Shown: positions 4,864 to 59,477 of the stretch, in pieces | How the letters are laid out: every line of letters begins with the position of its first letter | How positions within the stretch are numbered: position 1 is the stretch's first letter | NCBI GenBank assembly: GCA_947568835.1 | Contig: OX387603.1 | Span: 26,064,651 to 26,128,650 of the forward strand | From: Protonemura montana | Taxonomy: Eukaryota > Arthropoda > Insecta > Plecoptera > Nemouridae | DNA length: 64,000 bases | Reading direction: 5' to 3' | Notes under the pieces: model-generated | Databases searched by the model: none | What the model saw: the letters and a program-made list of their open reading frames with translations, nothing else | What the model was told of the DNA's origin: nothing | Translations under genes and position numbers: made by a program

Positions 4864-5181
4864 CTCTCATGCTATTTTATTATCATGAACAATATAACCG
4901 TCTCAAAGATTGATGCCCAAACGGGGACACGAACCACGATCTCCACCTATCGCGGGTGTTGCTCTAACCCATTAAGCTACTTGGACACTGGCTTTTTGAG
5001 ACAATTTTAGTGTATTTGATGTATGTATATGTGATACATGATATATGTGTATTTTTATTTTGATATGTCCCCGTTTGGGCATCAATTTTTGAGACGGTTA
5101 TAGTGTTGATAATAATGAAATACCCCGCGCATTGCAAGCGTTTGCAATTTAAATAATATCTCATCTATATACTCTCATGCT
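4864..5181. mobile_element. Foldback unit B enclosing a tRNA-like core
   Basis: Arms at 4874-4929 and 5066-5121 are inverted copies of about 56 bp, with small gaps in the left arm. The loop (4930-5065) holds a tRNA-like segment. The unit is bordered by CTCTCATGCT on both sides (4864-4873 and 5172-5181); a near-identical copy (CTCTCGTGCT) precedes unit A. These three direct repeats suggest target-site duplication or tandem duplication of a unit. Units A and B appear to be a tandem pair of one family. Confidence 0.75.
4917..4990 (-). repeat. tRNA-like segment (SINE-type, not a working tRNA)
   Basis: On the minus strand the segment has an A-box-like TAGCTTAATGGG and a perfect B box GGTTCGTGTCC with tRNA-like spacing. 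The anticodon loop lacks the invariant T33 and the acceptor stem is not closed, so a functional tRNA is unlikely. It is better read as a tRNA-derived pol III promoter inside foldback unit B. Part of it overlaps the unit's left arm. Confidence 0.65.
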
Positions 5182-5395
5182 GTCTCATCCCTTCTAACCT
5201 CTCTCCCAAACAGACCTGGTCGTGTGTATGATGGTAATTTAGCTAACTTCGCTGATCTTTCCGATCTTATGAGGGTCGATATCACTAACAGGAATTCAAA
5301 AAACTATTTGATGGTCACCCTCAGGGCAGTGTTGCTTAACTTCGGTGATCTCACGAAGACAAGTGTTTCCAACACGACAAACCGTTCGGTTCCTC

Positions 5396-13573: not shown

Positions 13574-13784
13574 TCTGTGATCTCACGAGAACCGATGTTT
13601 CGAACACGCCAAACCGTTTGGTGGTCACCCATCCAATACCTGACCCAGCGCAGTGTTGCTAAACTTGGATGATCTCACGAGGACTGGTTTTTCCAACACG
13701 CCAAACCGTTGAGTGGTCACCCATCCAATACCTGACCCAGCGCAGTGTTACTCAACTTTGATAATCTCACGAAGACCGGTGTTC
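13574..13784 (-). repeat. Tandem 5S-derived 92-bp repeats (short array)
   Basis: On the minus strand these are head-to-tail copies of the SINE head. Two GGTCACCCATCCAAT starts, at 13623 and 13715, are exactly 92 bp apart. A partial unit begins at 13574 and the last unit fades near 13784. The 5S-like motifs GGATGGGTGACC (box C) and GATCTCACGAGAACCG are visible. The SINE tail is absent on either side. The array is more diverged than the one at 58179. Confidence 0.8.
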
Positions 13785-16674: not shown

Positions 16675-16917
16675 CGATTGCAACCCTTCGTTCACTCGCG
16701 CGCAAGGGAGACGTGGTTTGGAGCGGAGACCACCGAACAGTGCCGGGGAGATCTCGAGGGAGGCCCCGAACCTCGTCTTGAGGATGCAACGCTGCATGCC
16801 GTGCTCATTGGTGTGAAACTTCTACGTCAGTAGGCGGAAATCGTCGCGAAAATTCGCAAATTCCCAGAGTTATAACTTTGTACGCAAAAATGTGTTGTGA
16901 TGTACTTGATTTAATTT

Positions 16918-17340
16918 TGGTTTCTAGCAACGCACTGTTTTGACAACGAGCTTTTTGGTTTAATGGCGTCAGCAAATGAGTGGGTGATAAAATTAACCTT
17001 ATATTATGATGATGATGAACCTCACCAATCGTAGAAGAGAGGAGGGGAAACCCGGAACCGACACGTAGCCTACTCCTGTTGAAGAGCATTAAGGGGACCA
17101 CCGGCTTAACGTCCCTTCCGAAAGACGGTACAACGCGAACAGCAGGATTTCTCCACAAATCCATGCTGTCGAGAGGTTGATAAGCAAGACGAATGAAGTT
17201 GCTGTACTTACTTTCATCCCTCCAACCTCTCTCCCGAACAGAACTGGTCATGTGTATGATGGCCACCCATCCAATACCTAACTCAGCGCAGAGTTGCTTA
17301 ACTTCTGTGATATCATGAGAACTCCACTCGACAGTCAAAT
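16918..17340 (-). mobile_element. 5S-derived composite SINE
   Basis: Near full-length minus-strand copy. The 3' end at about 16918 reads CTAGCAACGCACTGTTTTGA, complementary to the tail terminus of the copy at 40012. It is followed by an ATC-type repeat remnant (GATGATGATG near 17008), the CCGGCTTAACGTCCCTTC module, the TGTCGAGAGGTTGATAAGCA block, and the 5S-like head from about 17262. The head is cut near 17330, before the segment matching the 5' end of 5S. No insertion is present, so this copy gives the intact order of the tail missing at 4731-5181. Confidence 0.88.
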
Positions 17341-26883: not shown

Positions 26884-27644
26884 AGATGTCGCAGGCGCGA
26901 GGTAATTAGCCGCTGCGCTCTTGCAATTGAGCAAATTGCAACCCACTTCCGGCGCCTTTTGTTCCAGTAAATCGGCTGCACTAGAAAATGTCTTTGCTCT
27001 AGTTAGTTTGAGAGAGACAGAGAGAAGGATAGACGTCTTCTGAAAATGAATTTTCAATACTCATCAAAGATTCCGTGAGAAGCGGATGAGTGCCGTTGTT
27101 TAGTCGACCTGCGCGCGCTCTTCGCGGGAGGCGGCGAACAACAGCACTACAGATGTAGCAATTACCGTAGCGTTCTTTTGTCTTCCCGACGTCGCGGCGA
27201 TCGATATCGTGAGGCGTTAAACTCATCGCGTCCGATGGCCCCCGGGTGTCGACGGCGTCCTCTACTTCGTGTAATCAGAGGAAATGGAGGGTAGCGATTC
27301 GTGAAGGGGTGGCCGGTTTGGGGGTTCGGCGATGATAGGGGGAAAAAGGCGGCCGCCCACGTGTCTATGCGCTTCCGGTTTCCGGGACTATGACGACGGT
27401 GAAACGCTTCTCTTTTGCACGACGTTTTAGCGCCTTTGACTTGCGGCGATGAGGATTAGCTTCGTCTTGGTGCAGGGACTTCATTTGCCTCTGCACTGCG
27501 GGTACAGGGTAGGGGATTATTTCGACCTTTGCCAAGGGAAAGTCCTAAACTGAAACAATTGAAGTGGTTTACGAAGCATTGTACCTGAGAGCTGTGACAC
27601 TGTCTCATGGCGTCGAAGGATGACGTCGAACCTAATCGCGCTTA

Positions 27645-27960
27645 AAAGAGACGAGAGGGAACCCGGTGCTGGCACGTAGCCCACTACTGTTGAAGAGCAC
27701 CAAGGGGACCACCGGCTTAACGTCCCTTCCGAATTACGGTACAACGCGAACAGCAGGATTCCTCCACAAATCTATTCAGTCAAGAGGTTGATAAACATGG
27801 CGGGTGAAGTTGTTGAACTAACTTTCAACTCTCCCACCTCCTCCAGAACAAACTGATCATAAGTATAATGGTAACCCATCCAATACTATAGTCTAGTGTT
27901 GCTTAACTTGAGAGAACGCATGAGGACCGAAGTATTGACACTTTAAACCGTTCGTTCTCG
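27645..27960 (-). mobile_element. 5S-derived composite SINE, truncated tail
   Basis: Minus-strand copy with the tail blocks GGTGCTGGCACGTAGCC, CCGGCTTAACGTCCCTTC, CAAGAGGTTGATAAACATGG and a diverged head (GGTAACCCATCCAATACT through AAACCGTTCG). The 3' terminus (GTCAAAACAGTGCG part) is absent, so it ends inside the tail near 27645. The head shows more change than the tail. Confidence 0.82.
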
Positions 27961-40011: not shown

Positions 40012-40461
40012 ACCGAACGGTTTGGCATGTTGGAAACACCGGTTCTCGTTAAACCACCGAAGTTAAGCAACACTGCGCTGTGTTAGGTATTAGATAGGTG
40101 ACCATCATAAACATGATCAGTTCTGTTCGGGAGATAGGTTTGAGGGATGAAAGTTAGTACAGTAACTTCACTCGCCTTGCTTATCAACCTCTCGACAGCA
40201 TGGATTTGTGGAGGAATCCTGCTGTTTGAATTGTACCGTCCTTCGGAAGGGACGTTAAGCCGGTAGTCACCTTAGTGCTCTTCGACAGGAGTAGGCTATG
40301 TGCCGGCACCGGGTTTCCCCTCCTTCCTTCTAGGCTAGGCTAGGTTCATCATCATCATCCTCATCATCATCCACTCATTCAACGACGCCATTAGACCAGT
40401 GCCGCATGGCCAGATGTCAAAACAGTGCGTCGTTAAACACCACAAATAATAATAACAATAA
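40012..40461 (+). mobile_element. Complete 5S-derived composite SINE
   Basis: The 12-bp direct repeat TGCTGCGAGCGG occurs at 40000-40011 and again at 40462-40473, marking the insertion. The 92-bp head (40012-40103) follows animal 5S rRNA: CACCGGTTCTCG, CCACCGAAGTTAAGCAAC (box A region) and a GGTGACC box-C end. The ~355-bp tail carries CTTATCAACCTCTCGACAGC, CTTCGGAAGGGACGTTAAGC, an ATC repeat (40340-40372) and the terminus TGTCAAAACAGTGCGTCGTT before an AAT-type tail. Structure matches the SINE3 class (5S-promoted). A partner LINE is inferred to recognise the shared 3' end; none is seen in this window. Confidence 0.93.
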
Positions 40462-40473
40462 TGCTGCGAGCGG

Positions 40474-55219: not shown

Positions 55220-57741
55220 TCCACAATGTGTTTCACCAGACGAGCAAATAATCAAGTGAGCTACATGTCTGTCTGTGCGGGCATAATGCACGGACAAATG
55301 GCAAGACCACCCCATGCGTGGGGGAACTTTTGCACGAAGCATATCACTAACAAACTGGGGGTTGCTTTTTCATTACATTAGGACCGTGCCAACTCTTCCA
55401 GGCTCCGATTCGCGTCCACCCCTTTGTTTTCAAAAACAACATATTCACCCGCTCAGCCGGACAAAATTTACTCGCGTAAACGAATATTTTACGAGGCCTT
55501 TAATAACCAACGGCAGTCCTACCAATCTCGTGTGAATGATCGGCCCGGCCGTGGTGGGCTCGCATGGCAACAGTGGCAACGCCGCACTCCGACAACGACC
55601 GTGCATTGCCCAGCTGACGGCGACATCAATCAACGAGGAAACATGTCAAGGTGCCCCCAAGTAATTATCAATAATAATAATTGCAACAAGCTAGTCAGCT
55701 CTGGCGTGAAATAGTATGGCTGGTGCGAGGGGGACTCAAAGTGATGGCGCCGCAGAAACGACCCAGCGAGGGGCGATTCACTCGCTCCACGCAATTGCGA
55801 GTGATTCAAACGTGCACGTGGCATTCTGGCCGGACTAATGCTTCAATATTTGCGAAGTGAATGGGATTACTTTGGTCCACGGATGAGGCCTCACCGAAAA
55901 GTCGCCGCGTTGCCAAAACGGGGCTGGCGAACGTCGGTCGGCGGTTTTCCCAGAGTAACTAACGGCCGAGTCCGTCATTGGATTAGCGGCAAAGAGCGAG
56001 CAGAGCAGAGCCGACGGCGACCGGTGCCCGGCAATCGAGACGCGAGCGTAGCTAATTACGGGAATTGATCAGCATGGGTATGCAATCGCGAAATGGCTTC
56101 AAGACTTTGCCTGCGTTACAGCAAGGGTCCACGAAGCGAGGCGTTTGATCTACATATCGTTGTCGCTTGCCGTTCAGGCTTGGAAACGTAGCTAAATTTA
56201 GACCCAACGAGCAATCCAGACCCAGACGTTCGTTCCCTTTGAAAAGCCGTGGTCCACGCACTGACAGACGAAGAACAGTCTCTCTTTTTTTGTCAGCGAA
56301 ATCCTCGACGGAATCCTGCAAAGCAATTCACCCGCGCCTGACAGCCGAAAAGGAAGTAATTTTAAAACGTGTTACTCATCGGCAACGCCCCTGCCCCCTT
56401 GGCGGCGCTTATTGGATTTCCACGGCTCAATTGAACGAGTGTTTAATAAAAAAAAAAAAGAAAGCGCGCGAAAACTGCTAATAATTTCAGTGCTCAACGG
56501 CGCCGTGCCTGTCCCGATAGAAATGACGAATTTTCTAATCTCATTTCCTCCACCGCCGGGAAATCGGGAGGCGCGATGCGATTTTCTGGAATCCCAGGAC
56601 TTGTCGCGTAGGTCGGGACTAATCTGCTCCAGAGTTCAGCCCGAGTAGCTCGTGTTTTCTTGGAAGACATGCGCACAAATGCATTGCACAAGCATCTATG
56701 TACCCTATAATCTTGATGACGATGCAAGATGATGTACAAGCATATATGTACCTACACTATCTTGATTACCTAGCACGAATACCCCGCAAGATAAGCCGGA
56801 AGCCACTTCTCGCCGGCCCCCGCTGTAACTTCCGGGCAAAAGAAAGACATCTCCGTACACCCATGAAAACTGACTCACCATCTTCTCGTCCTCGGCAACT
56901 AGTCCCAAAGTAGGTTACACACACGCGGTCTTCGTCGTCAACGACGTCAGCACAATGCGCCGGTATCCGCCGAGACAATGGCGCCCCCTGTGAATAGAGG
57001 CATACACTACCAACTGTTTCAGCAGTAATTACCGAGTAGTTAGAAGCCTAATTATCCCGAACACTCGACACGGGGACAATAACACGGGGCACGGCGAGGT
57101 AGATCTAGTTCGCTCGGTTCGTTAGGGCGACAATTCCGCCGAGAAGCACGCGGACATGCGCCTTGCGAGCCGGTGGCGTGCCGCGAGATCAAGTGGCCGT
57201 GCACTTGACAGGACAATCGCGAAGCGCATCGTTACGTCGAGAAGCGACCGTGATGACGGGGAGGAACAAGACGTGGTTCTTGGTTGCCATGCGACGGTTT
57301 CATTGTTTTTCAGTGCACTCAGCTGAGGGTTGCAGGGTGTTTTCCAAGTTAATCAACGGCCACACGATATTTGCACGGCCTTCTGTAAGTGTACTTCCGA
57401 AATGTCGAAATGTCGAAATTGTCAGGACTGCTCAAACCTCTGAAGAAGTAACTAGTATATGTTGCGAAACTTCGGGAAATTTAGTAGCCCTTTACTTAGC
57501 ATTCAAAACCCAGTTCAAATAGTTTTTGTTAAAACTAGTGCTAAGGATAAATCAAGGAGACATGAGTCTAAAAACCATCATAAAAATATGACCTTTTGGA
57601 AAATAACAATTTTTTTCACCGTCTTGCACCTCATTAAAGTGACCTCATAACTAGACGTGATTGCTAAACAATAATTGTGACAGCAAGTGCTTTGAATTGC
57701 TCCATCAGGCCGTGCTAGAAAGCTGCTCTCCGACTTCAAAC

Positions 57742-57826
57742 GGTCACCCACCCAGTGTCCGACTAGACAATGTGTTGCTTAACTTCGGTCGAAAACTACA
57801 TACCCTAAACCGATGTTCTGTCACGG
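57742..57826 (-). repeat. Single degenerate 5S-derived head
   Basis: On the plus strand it begins GGTCACCCACCCAGTG, continues through TGTTGCTTAACTTCGGTC and fades at about 57826. It matches the 92-bp head of the SINE but with more substitutions, and has no tail. It lies 350 bp from the large array at 58179 in the same orientation, so it may be an outlying unit. Confidence 0.7.
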
Positions 57827-57868
57827 CCACTAGAGAAACTTCGTTGTCAAAAAGCTGTTTTGTTGCAG

Positions 57869-57928
57869 TCCCCCTCCCCTGTCAACAGCAGCCAGTTCGG
57901 CCACCGTGCGCCAACCACGCCGAGGGAA
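57869..57928 (+). CDS. Candidate 60-nt exon, product unknown
   Basis: Bounded by a strong acceptor (AGCTGTTTTGTTGCAG, ending 57868) and a perfect donor core GTAAGT (from 57929). Length 60 keeps phase. In frame 0 it reads SPSPVNSSQFGHRAPTTPRE, with 16 of 20 codons ending in G or C; all three frames are open. Another frame that ignores the donor gives a cysteine-rich tail ending CTCSR at 57999. The Ser/Pro-rich reading would fit a disordered linker. Not recognised. Confidence 0.28.
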
Positions 57929-58178
57929 GTAAGTGCAGGAAACTGCAGTCCAAAGTGAGATGTCCCGGCACAGATCTGTCATGCACATGCAGCCGCTGAA
58001 TAATGCATGTCTGGTAGCGAGTTCATTTTGTCGAGGCACTTCCTCGGATGTAGTGCACCGTGCACTTGATGGTAATATATTATTATTAACGACTCGTTGT
58101 CTCTCGGGGTAACCTCGTGGACGACAAGTCGTGTCTTTCCTGGAAAATAAACTCCACACCCTAGCTACCTGTATACGC

Positions 58179-58711
58179 GGTCACCCATCCAATGTCTGAC
58201 TCAACGCAGTGTTGCTAAACTTCGGTGATCTCACGAGGATCGGTGTTTCTAACACGCCAAACCGTTCGGTGGTCACCCATCCAATACTGGACCCAGCTCA
58301 GTGTTGCTTAACTTCGGTGATCTCATGAGAACCGGTGTTTCCAACACACCAAACAGTTCGGTGGTCACCCATCCAATACTGGACCCAGCTCAGTGTTGCT
58401 TAACTTCGATAATCTCACGAGAACCAGTGTTTCCAACACACCAAACAGTTCGGTGGTCACCCATCCAATACTGGACCCAGCTCAGTGTTGCTTAACTTCG
58501 ATAATCTCACGAGGACCGGTGTTTCCAACACACCATACAGTTCGGTGGTCACCCATCCAATACTGGACCCAGCTCAGTGTTGCTTAACTTCAGTGATCTC
58601 ATAAGAACCGGTGTTTCCAACAACTAAACAGTTCAGTGGTCACCCATCCAATACTGGACCCAGCTCAGCGTTGCTTAACTTCGGGGAATGAGAAACCGTT
58701 TGGTGGCCAGA
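58179..58711 (-). repeat. Tandem array of six 5S-derived 92-bp units
   Basis: GGTCACCCATCCAAT recurs at 58179, 58271, 58363, 58455, 58547 and 58638: four steps of exactly 92 bp, then 91. On the minus strand each unit equals roughly nt 1-92 of 5S rRNA, including GAAGTTAAGCAAC (box A region) and GGATGGGTGACC (box C), but lacks the last ~28 nt. Units 2 to 5 are almost identical, indicating recent amplification; unit 6 is rearranged at its end. No SINE tail adjoins. Each unit keeps a potential internal pol III promoter, though activity is unproven. Confidence 0.93.
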
Positions 58712-58719
58712 CCTTCAGG

Positions 58720-59250
58720 TGTCAGACAAAAACCCTCGCTCGCCAGTCGGGACACTAAACACTCGCCCGAACGTAATAACATGCGGATTAAAACATCCAG
58801 TTGTTAGTTTAAAAAATTTCGCTGACGTGTAATATCCTGGTAGCACTGGTCTCGGTTTCTGCCGTCGACTCTATTTGCATGCCATCTGTCCCGGCGACGG
58901 CGACCCGCCGTAAGCTGCTCTGAATTGCGAACGCGCTGTCCGGTATTCAAATTTAGGTGTTCCATTAAAAGACGTAATGCGCTCATAAACATTACAAAGC
59001 ACTCCATACAGCCGCGACTCCTGCACTGGCAATTATTGAAATAAAAAGAGAAAATCCCTCAAATGAGTTTGTGCAAAAAACGAAATTATCCTCTTTCCCC
59101 CTCGTTGTGTAAGGGTACATATCTAAAAGGGGGGAAGGTAAAACGACAACCAAGCTAGAGATTGTTGAGTGTAGTCATTGAGTTTACAGGTTCGGTCAGA
59201 GAGTTCCAGCGATAGTGTCAAACTGTCCCGTGAAAAAAAATACTAATAAA
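58720..59250. other. Gene-free stretch
   Basis: Spacer between the 5S-derived array and the MITE-like element; no recognisable feature. Confidence 0.5.
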
Positions 59251-59251
59251 A

Positions 59252-59477
59252 ATGGTAGTTGCTACCAGATTGAGTCATCGTTTTTTTGTAGATATAAGAA
59301 ATTTTATTTCGTTATTTCTCGCAGATTACTCGCGTTTGAGACTTGATTTCACTCAAATATTCTTCATTGATGCTAACTTTTACGATTACTTACACATTTA
59401 TCGTAGATTAAGTCGTTATTATTTCATTTTAATACAACTTTGGGTGGCCGCAAGCGCCATCTGGTGGCAGCTACCAT
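59252..59477. mobile_element. MITE-like element with ATGGTAG ends
   Basis: Terminal inverted repeats ATGGTAGTTGCTACCAGAT (left) and its near reverse complement ATCTGGTGGCAGCTACCAT (right), differing at two positions. Length 226 bp. The interior AAATTTTATTTCGTTATTTC and ATTACTCGC are shared with the elements at 42520 and 50469. No clear target duplication. Confidence 0.75.

Follow-up and report, generated by a model that had tools for sequence, protein, structure and literature searches.

Satellite-like arrays built from the front end of a 5S-headed SINE in Protonemura montana

SINE-derived satellites (sSats) are known from squamate reptiles, where they belong to tRNA-related SINEs; the accessible text of that report treats earlier SINE-satellite examples as inconclusive and the restriction of sSats to squamates as uncertain (Vassetzky et al. 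2023, PMC10702118). A 5S-like conserved part, as found here, also characterizes the PcP190 satellite of frogs, whose 190-bp unit combines 120 bp of 5S-like sequence with a variable region and likely came from 5S rDNA, according to a report whose main text does not contain the word 'SINE' (PMC11675491). The unit described here is unlike it in being 92 bp long, spacer-free and SINE-derived, and does not have the PcP190 make-up of a whole 120-bp 5S-like part plus a variable region. Among retroposons, HaSE3 of Helicoverpa has, like the element analyzed below, a 5' region that resembles 5S and carries boxes A, IE and C, and some target-site duplications, whereas the main text of its report mentions no tandem arrays and lacks the word 'tandem' (PMC3272025); arrays are present here. 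A search of the literature, with subscription papers mostly beyond reach, turned up no published case in which a 5S-derived SINE had given rise to a satellite.

The analyzed window is a 64,000-bp stretch of the 258.5-Mb, 34-contig assembly of Protonemura montana (C2:26064651-26128650), and S-numbers denote positions in its 5S-headed SINE. TRF reports 58179-58684 as tandemly repetitive, with a period of 92 bp and a score of 821. In the minus-strand sense, the array at 58179-58711 consists of a leading 74-bp partial unit and five complete ~92-bp units, so that the array and period described in an earlier note on this DNA are real and its count of six head-to-tail units falls to five plus a leading piece. 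The complete units form a type A array of the SINE head at 58179..58637 (minus strand; TRF, BLAST, unit limits and identities), four of 92 bp at 58179-58270, 58271-58362, 58363-58454 and 58455-58546, and one of 91 bp at 58547-58637. The leading piece (58638..58711, minus strand) covers approximately SINE positions 42-92 (S46-93 in one comparison) together with what is left, in rearranged form, of a preceding unit.

Each complete unit aligns to 5S positions 1-92, with 74.5-76.6% identity to the 5S gene, bearing out the earlier reading of the units as the first ~92 nt of 5S. The near-identity then ascribed to units 2-5 describes the three units at 58271-58546, which are mutually 94.6-96.7% identical, but not the unit at 58547-58637, which shares 89.1-94.6% with them. 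The 3'-most unit (58179-58270) is an outlier, with 80.6-86.0% identity to the other window units. As would be expected at the edge of an array, it agrees with the SINE consensus at unit positions 8 and 15, at which 58271-58546 have a private state. Over its whole length it is 83.7% identical to the window SINE, not more than its neighbor, at 84.8%. Unit identity within the window array is 89.5%, more diverged than the within-locus average of 95.4% (232 pairs); between loci it is 92.0% (4,424 pairs).

With box limits that we take to be those of Xenopus 5S, AAGTTAAGCAAC is present in five of the six window copies (five units and the leading piece). All six copies stop inside box C, leaving TGGATGGGTGACC, 13 of 18 nt. 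The earlier statement that both boxes are intact in most units thus stands for the first and fails for box C. No target-site duplication was found for the window array, the longest word common to its flanks being 6 bp, and the SINE profile detects no adjoining tail. A 16-bp stretch that may be left over from the end of a SINE, GTCGTTAATAATAATA (58078..58093, minus strand), lies ~85 bp 3' of the array and was picked out by eye alone, post hoc. Placement of the array within a larger dispersed repeat was rejected, as flanks 57600-58170 and 58730-59300 match fully only themselves, other genome matches being side matches of 39-102 bases. Some 600 bp from the array and outside these two flank queries, a piece at 57501-57581 (at least 81 bp, the query having ended at 57501) recurs near head arrays L007 (97.5%) and L076 (92.8%).

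The parent SINE is ~450 bp long, with the 3' end GTCGTTAAACACCACAAATAATAATAA and target-site duplications of ~11-14 bp. Among 30 loci selected by their tails, 23 are flanked by shared words of 11-14 bp, and ten of the 23 represent a single insertion in multiple copies. The window holds a full-length, single-head copy at 40012..40459 (plus strand), identified by the Rfam 5S model (55.5 bits) and the SINE profile (40060-40468, 494 bits). Its 5S-derived head spans ~40013-40131, its tail runs to 40459 and is followed by TAA-type repeats, and a 12-bp target-site duplication, TGCTGCGAGCGG, flanks the element. A 5S-like head with internal pol III boxes and target-site duplications are features of 5S-derived SINEs of the SINE3 type, and this element shows both. 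Neither the unit consensus nor the window SINE contains a run of four T. From S93 onward the SINE matches at ≥92% at 40 scored places out of 4,743 candidates, and its 17-base tail anchor occurs exactly 5,258 times genome-wide.

Rfam model RF00001 matches 40013-40131 end to end (model 1-120), scoring 55.5 bits for S1-124 and 44.0 bits for S1-92, a gain of 11.5 bits from the 3' part. Helix I is restored in register: S2-10 and S111-119 pair at eight of nine positions, a value reached by 118 of 100,000 shuffles, or by 435 of 20,000 when the register is left free. Plain alignment of S93-121 with the 3' end of the 5S gene is not significant (534 of 5,000 shuffles), so the assignment of a ~120-nt head leans on structure more than on sequence. 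The model match and helix pairing indicate a 5S-derived head of ~120 nt, not 92. The earlier equation of unit length with head length was therefore wrong, and the 92-bp unit comes from within the head.

Other traces of the SINE in the window, all on the minus strand, include a diverged copy from ~S31 without array (16911..17322; SINE profile 399 bits, BLAST), a second diverged copy (27558..27909; SINE profile 266 bits) and an isolated head piece, S1-69 (5322..5390; BLAST). A second type A array, absent from the earlier note, lies at 13578..13783 with 2.2 units of 92 bp and 87% matches (TRF, BLAST). The window's four longest stop-to-stop frames gave no Pfam match at E 0.01.

The earlier note had called for a genome search for 92-bp arrays of this unit and for a count of arrays with and without SINE tails. 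The exact S92-to-S1 junction that defines the 92-bp unit occurs 1,200 times genome-wide, against one occurrence of a control. The same SINE gave rise to a second satellite, a 91-bp unit from positions 49-145 whose S145-to-S49 junction lies on the 6-bp direct repeat AAGTTA; this junction occurs exactly 16,986 times (control 0), and the S86-99 word, also inside the 91-bp unit, 21,939 times (control 1). By arithmetic from its junctions, the 91-bp satellite amounts to at least ~1.5 Mb, 0.6% of the assembly. At C1:990209-993957, exact 91-bp junctions are spaced at multiples of ~91 bp across 3.7 kb. S92-to-S1 junctions lie at 62 separate loci on C1 and C2 alone.

Sixty-nine loci were fetched by pattern or similarity searches, not as a random genome sample: 39 because they contain the S92-to-S1 junction or are extended arrays of that kind, and 30 for SINE-tail similarity. 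They contain 212 internal repeat junctions, 208 of which are of two kinds in 4-nt bins: 114 S92-to-S1 junctions in 36 loci and 94 S145-to-S49 junctions with the 6-bp overlap in 22 loci, ten of these loci being copies of one insertion. The remaining four comprise three near variants of S92-to-S1 and one S77-to-S1.

A third satellite comes from a different source. A tRNA-Ser-like sequence at 4912-4987 (minus strand) sits in a dispersed element with apparent inverted-repeat arms, recognized by eye; given that setting, its candidacy as head of a second SINE with the same tail was dropped. A 52-bp part of it is tandemly arrayed elsewhere (L003 2743-3276, L039 1781-3119), with 8,849 exact genome-wide occurrences of the array junction word and 2,283 of an ordinary word (controls 0). 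All three satellites (92, 91 and 52 bp) contain a pol III box A. Two of them run from the presumed transcription start to the downstream box, C in 5S and the start of B in the tRNA-like sequence. Since a second pol III gene-like sequence has become a satellite, such sequence could itself seed satellites here, with transcription as the cause of satellite birth; the head-to-head founding join would then occur at the RNA level at the transcript 5' end, or bound TFIIIA/TFIIIC would provoke duplication. We regard this as unlikely.

The 39 head-array loci come from three rounds (7 + 12 + 20), with L008 dropped for overlapping L003 and L110-L113 left uncounted. Fifteen of the 39 continue past the head into the SINE (beyond S118), L003 only to S133 and L096 only to S128. 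No tail was found at the other 24, the window array included, and the SINE origin of those 24 accordingly rests on unit sequence. L071 is a two-headed, nearly full-length SINE (S1-93, S1-436), with a 12-bp target-site duplication, ACCAGAGTAGGA, ahead of the first head and after the 3' end. L079 carries S1-436 with five extra heads, and L069 has six extra heads followed by a 91-bp array, after which SINE tail fills the remainder of the sequence retrieved. No target-site duplication was found at multi-headed L069, L074, L075, L076 and L079, or at L110-L113; retroposition of multi-headed elements thus rests on L071 and the shared junction.

Several head arrays share flanks, in the sets L070/L104, L072/L073/L077/L110 and L092/L102/L105/L107. 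Because such flanks are common to several tailless arrays, those arrays lie in other dispersed or duplicated repeats, and other repeats or duplications have thus spread head arrays. Tandem repeats of 41 and 53 bp occur within ~0.5 kb of head arrays at L004 2286-3507, L007 2510-3507 and L005 2629-3507.

Array size changes at fixed insertions. One SINE insertion is present in 11 copies among the 30 tail-selected loci (L010, L013-L017, L021, L032, L036-L038). The ten array-bearing copies contain 2, 3, 5, 5, 4, 6, 5, 5, 4 and 2 extra 91-bp units, with 3' flanks 99.1-99.9% identical; L013 and L017, whose flanks differ at 0.07% (99.93% identical), have three and six, the copy with three lying at C15:12642018 and that with six at C11:17958185. 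The eleventh copy, L032, has no extra unit and flanks 96.3-96.6% identical to those of the other ten; its state could be a collapse rather than ancestral. For ten of the 11 copies the nearest contig end is less than 1 Mb away, for L032 ~1.6 Mb, and the insertion with its flanks looks like a subtelomeric segmental duplication. When these 11 copies are counted as one, a 91-bp array is present in five of 20 insertions (L018, L027, L031, L035 and the 11-copy insertion). For the 92-bp unit, L073, with ~2.3 head units, and L077, with ~5.3, have both flanks in common (95.5%, 98.4%), whereas L072 resembles them on the 5' side only. In situ growth is observed directly for the 91-bp array, and for the head array rests on the L073/L077 pair.

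As a whole, these data are best explained by a SINE-derived satellite whose head was duplicated, recopied and then grown locally, an account that we hold with considerable confidence. An ancestral element would have acquired a duplicate of S1-92 directly before its head, which joined S92 to S1, the very first base of the element. Copies bearing at least two heads would then have been inserted at new sites. At single sites, DNA-level slippage or unequal exchange would have raised or lowered head number and homogenized the inner units. Some arrays, including that of the window, now lack a recognizable tail, and others are carried by surrounding repeats. The S92-to-S1 join uses up no homology, which is consistent with a founding event located where the element begins; we infer that the first head duplication arose during reverse transcription, the simplest course being a jump of template at the 5' end of the RNA. 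Later growth would reflect slippage or unequal exchange. The two AAGTTA words 91 bp apart in the SINE allow the same processes to explain the 91-bp junction, which may have arisen more than once.

If the arrays had formed wholly at the RNA level, by repeated template jumping at insertion and without later growth, the homology-free join at the SINE 5' terminus and the target-site duplication outside the first head of two-headed L071 would both be expected. Copies of one insertion nevertheless hold between zero and six 91-bp repeats, with flanks up to 99.93% identical, and units are more alike within than between loci, which makes a purely RNA-level origin quite improbable.

Selection could instead maintain the arrays as clusters of pol III/TFIIIA sites. 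Box A and part of box C are less diverged than the remainder of the unit (0.0315 vs 0.0606, permutation p 0.0275; 21 non-CpG box positions, with box C outside the search pattern, vs 46 others, in 97 units from 28 loci), and the unit consensus and window SINE are free of four-T runs. This divergence test is weak and uses pattern-found loci, an active parent SINE would pass on the same bias, and none of the window units has a complete box C; a selected function is hence very unlikely.

The converse direction, in which a satellite of truncated 5S genes came before the SINE and its unit was taken over as the SINE head, can be judged from how the three sequences compare. Over 92 positions the consensus of the array agrees with that of the SINE at 88, the SINE with the gene at 68 and the array with the gene at 69; array units and SINE have 21 common states absent from the 5S gene. 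At the four positions where array and SINE differ, the gene state is found in the array at two (S70, S82) and in the SINE at one (S33). This distribution and the many tailless arrays would suit a satellite that came first. Array-like states occur in sampled SINEs too, in L027 at S70 and S82 and in L035 at S39 and S82. Since sampling picked the SINEs that best match a single young copy, an older subfamily is under-sampled, and the source of the array units is likely to be such an older SINE subfamily, judging from these shared states. Further, the SINE retains 3' sequence of 5S that is missing from the unit, with 11.5 extra bits and helix I back in register, and the idea raised in the earlier note of a tandem repeat supplying SINE heads consequently finds no support.

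No truncated gene was seen among the scored 5S matches of this genome. All 47 scored 5S matches, the best 47 of 52,711 candidates, exceed the Rfam threshold and are full length (119 nt, model 1-120). A 92-nt truncation of genuine 5S genes, the finding that the earlier note had named as telling against its reading, is absent among them and was rejected; with units that end at 5S position 92, the array is, as that note had held, not a normal 5S gene cluster. Many 5S genes lie in a ~9.5-kb repeating unit at one end of C11 (C11:70-105743). Histone 3' stem-loops beside 5S genes in two of seven scanned loci (L043; L046 1501-1850) point to linkage of the 5S and histone genes in Protonemura montana.

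An array that preceded the SINE is a slim prospect. The opposite route, from SINE head to tandem repeat, was the other one envisaged in the earlier note and is borne out by the 21 shared states, the 88 of 92 agreement, the 15 of 39 loci that run into the SINE and, for a second SINE segment, the change of array size at a fixed insertion. The tails on these loci and the varying unit number at one insertion support derivation of the satellite from the SINE with local growth. Although assemblies are known to handle tandem arrays poorly, an artefact or chance repeat is scarcely credible here in view of 1,200 exact junctions of one kind (control one) and 16,986 of the other (control zero), S92-to-S1 at 62 separate loci on C1 and C2 alone, and a window array of 533 bp between flanks without a second full-length match.

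The SINE-derived arrays of Protonemura montana resemble squamate sSats in several respects described in the accessible text of PMC10702118. Tandem units are shorter than the SINE and come from a fixed part of it, here S1-92 of ~450 bp. Long squamate loci are more homogeneous, and units here are 95.4% identical within and 92.0% between loci. Copy number varies at some orthologous loci there and among copies of one insertion here. In squamates a longer end unit reaches the SINE terminus; here 15 of 39 arrays run past the head, not all to the end, and the window array does not. The preference of squamate sSats for chromosome ends may have a counterpart here: of the S92-to-S1 loci, 16 of 20 for C1 and 32 of 42 for C2 are in the outer 2 × 20% of the contig, but SINE tails also crowd one end of C1 (41 of the first 100 matches listed lie in 6.6 of 23.3 Mb at one end). 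Three of the five sSat characters are found: a unit that is a SINE segment, at least four monomers (five in the window) and higher within-locus identity. Unlike squamate sSats (PMC10702118, accessible text), the head here is 5S rRNA, and two satellites from one SINE can share an element (L069).

The closest mechanistic parallel, as far as the accessible text of PMC4432496 describes it, is the VNTR of SVA/LAVA, likewise a tandem array in a non-autonomous retrotransposon, with DNA-level change of repeat number at microhomologies. Its repeats are 30-50 bp, GC-rich and a standing domain of the element, whereas those here are the 5S promoter head or the head-tail border (PMC4432496). One genome holds the whole series, from single-copy SINEs and SINEs with few repeats to extended arrays and arrays without a tail, and includes an insertion with zero to six extra repeats, so that satellite birth and copy-number turnover are directly measurable. 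The front end of a 5S-headed SINE turning into satellite-like arrays is an example of one kind of repeat becoming another, and extends the sSat kind, described for tRNA-related SINEs, to a 5S-headed SINE.
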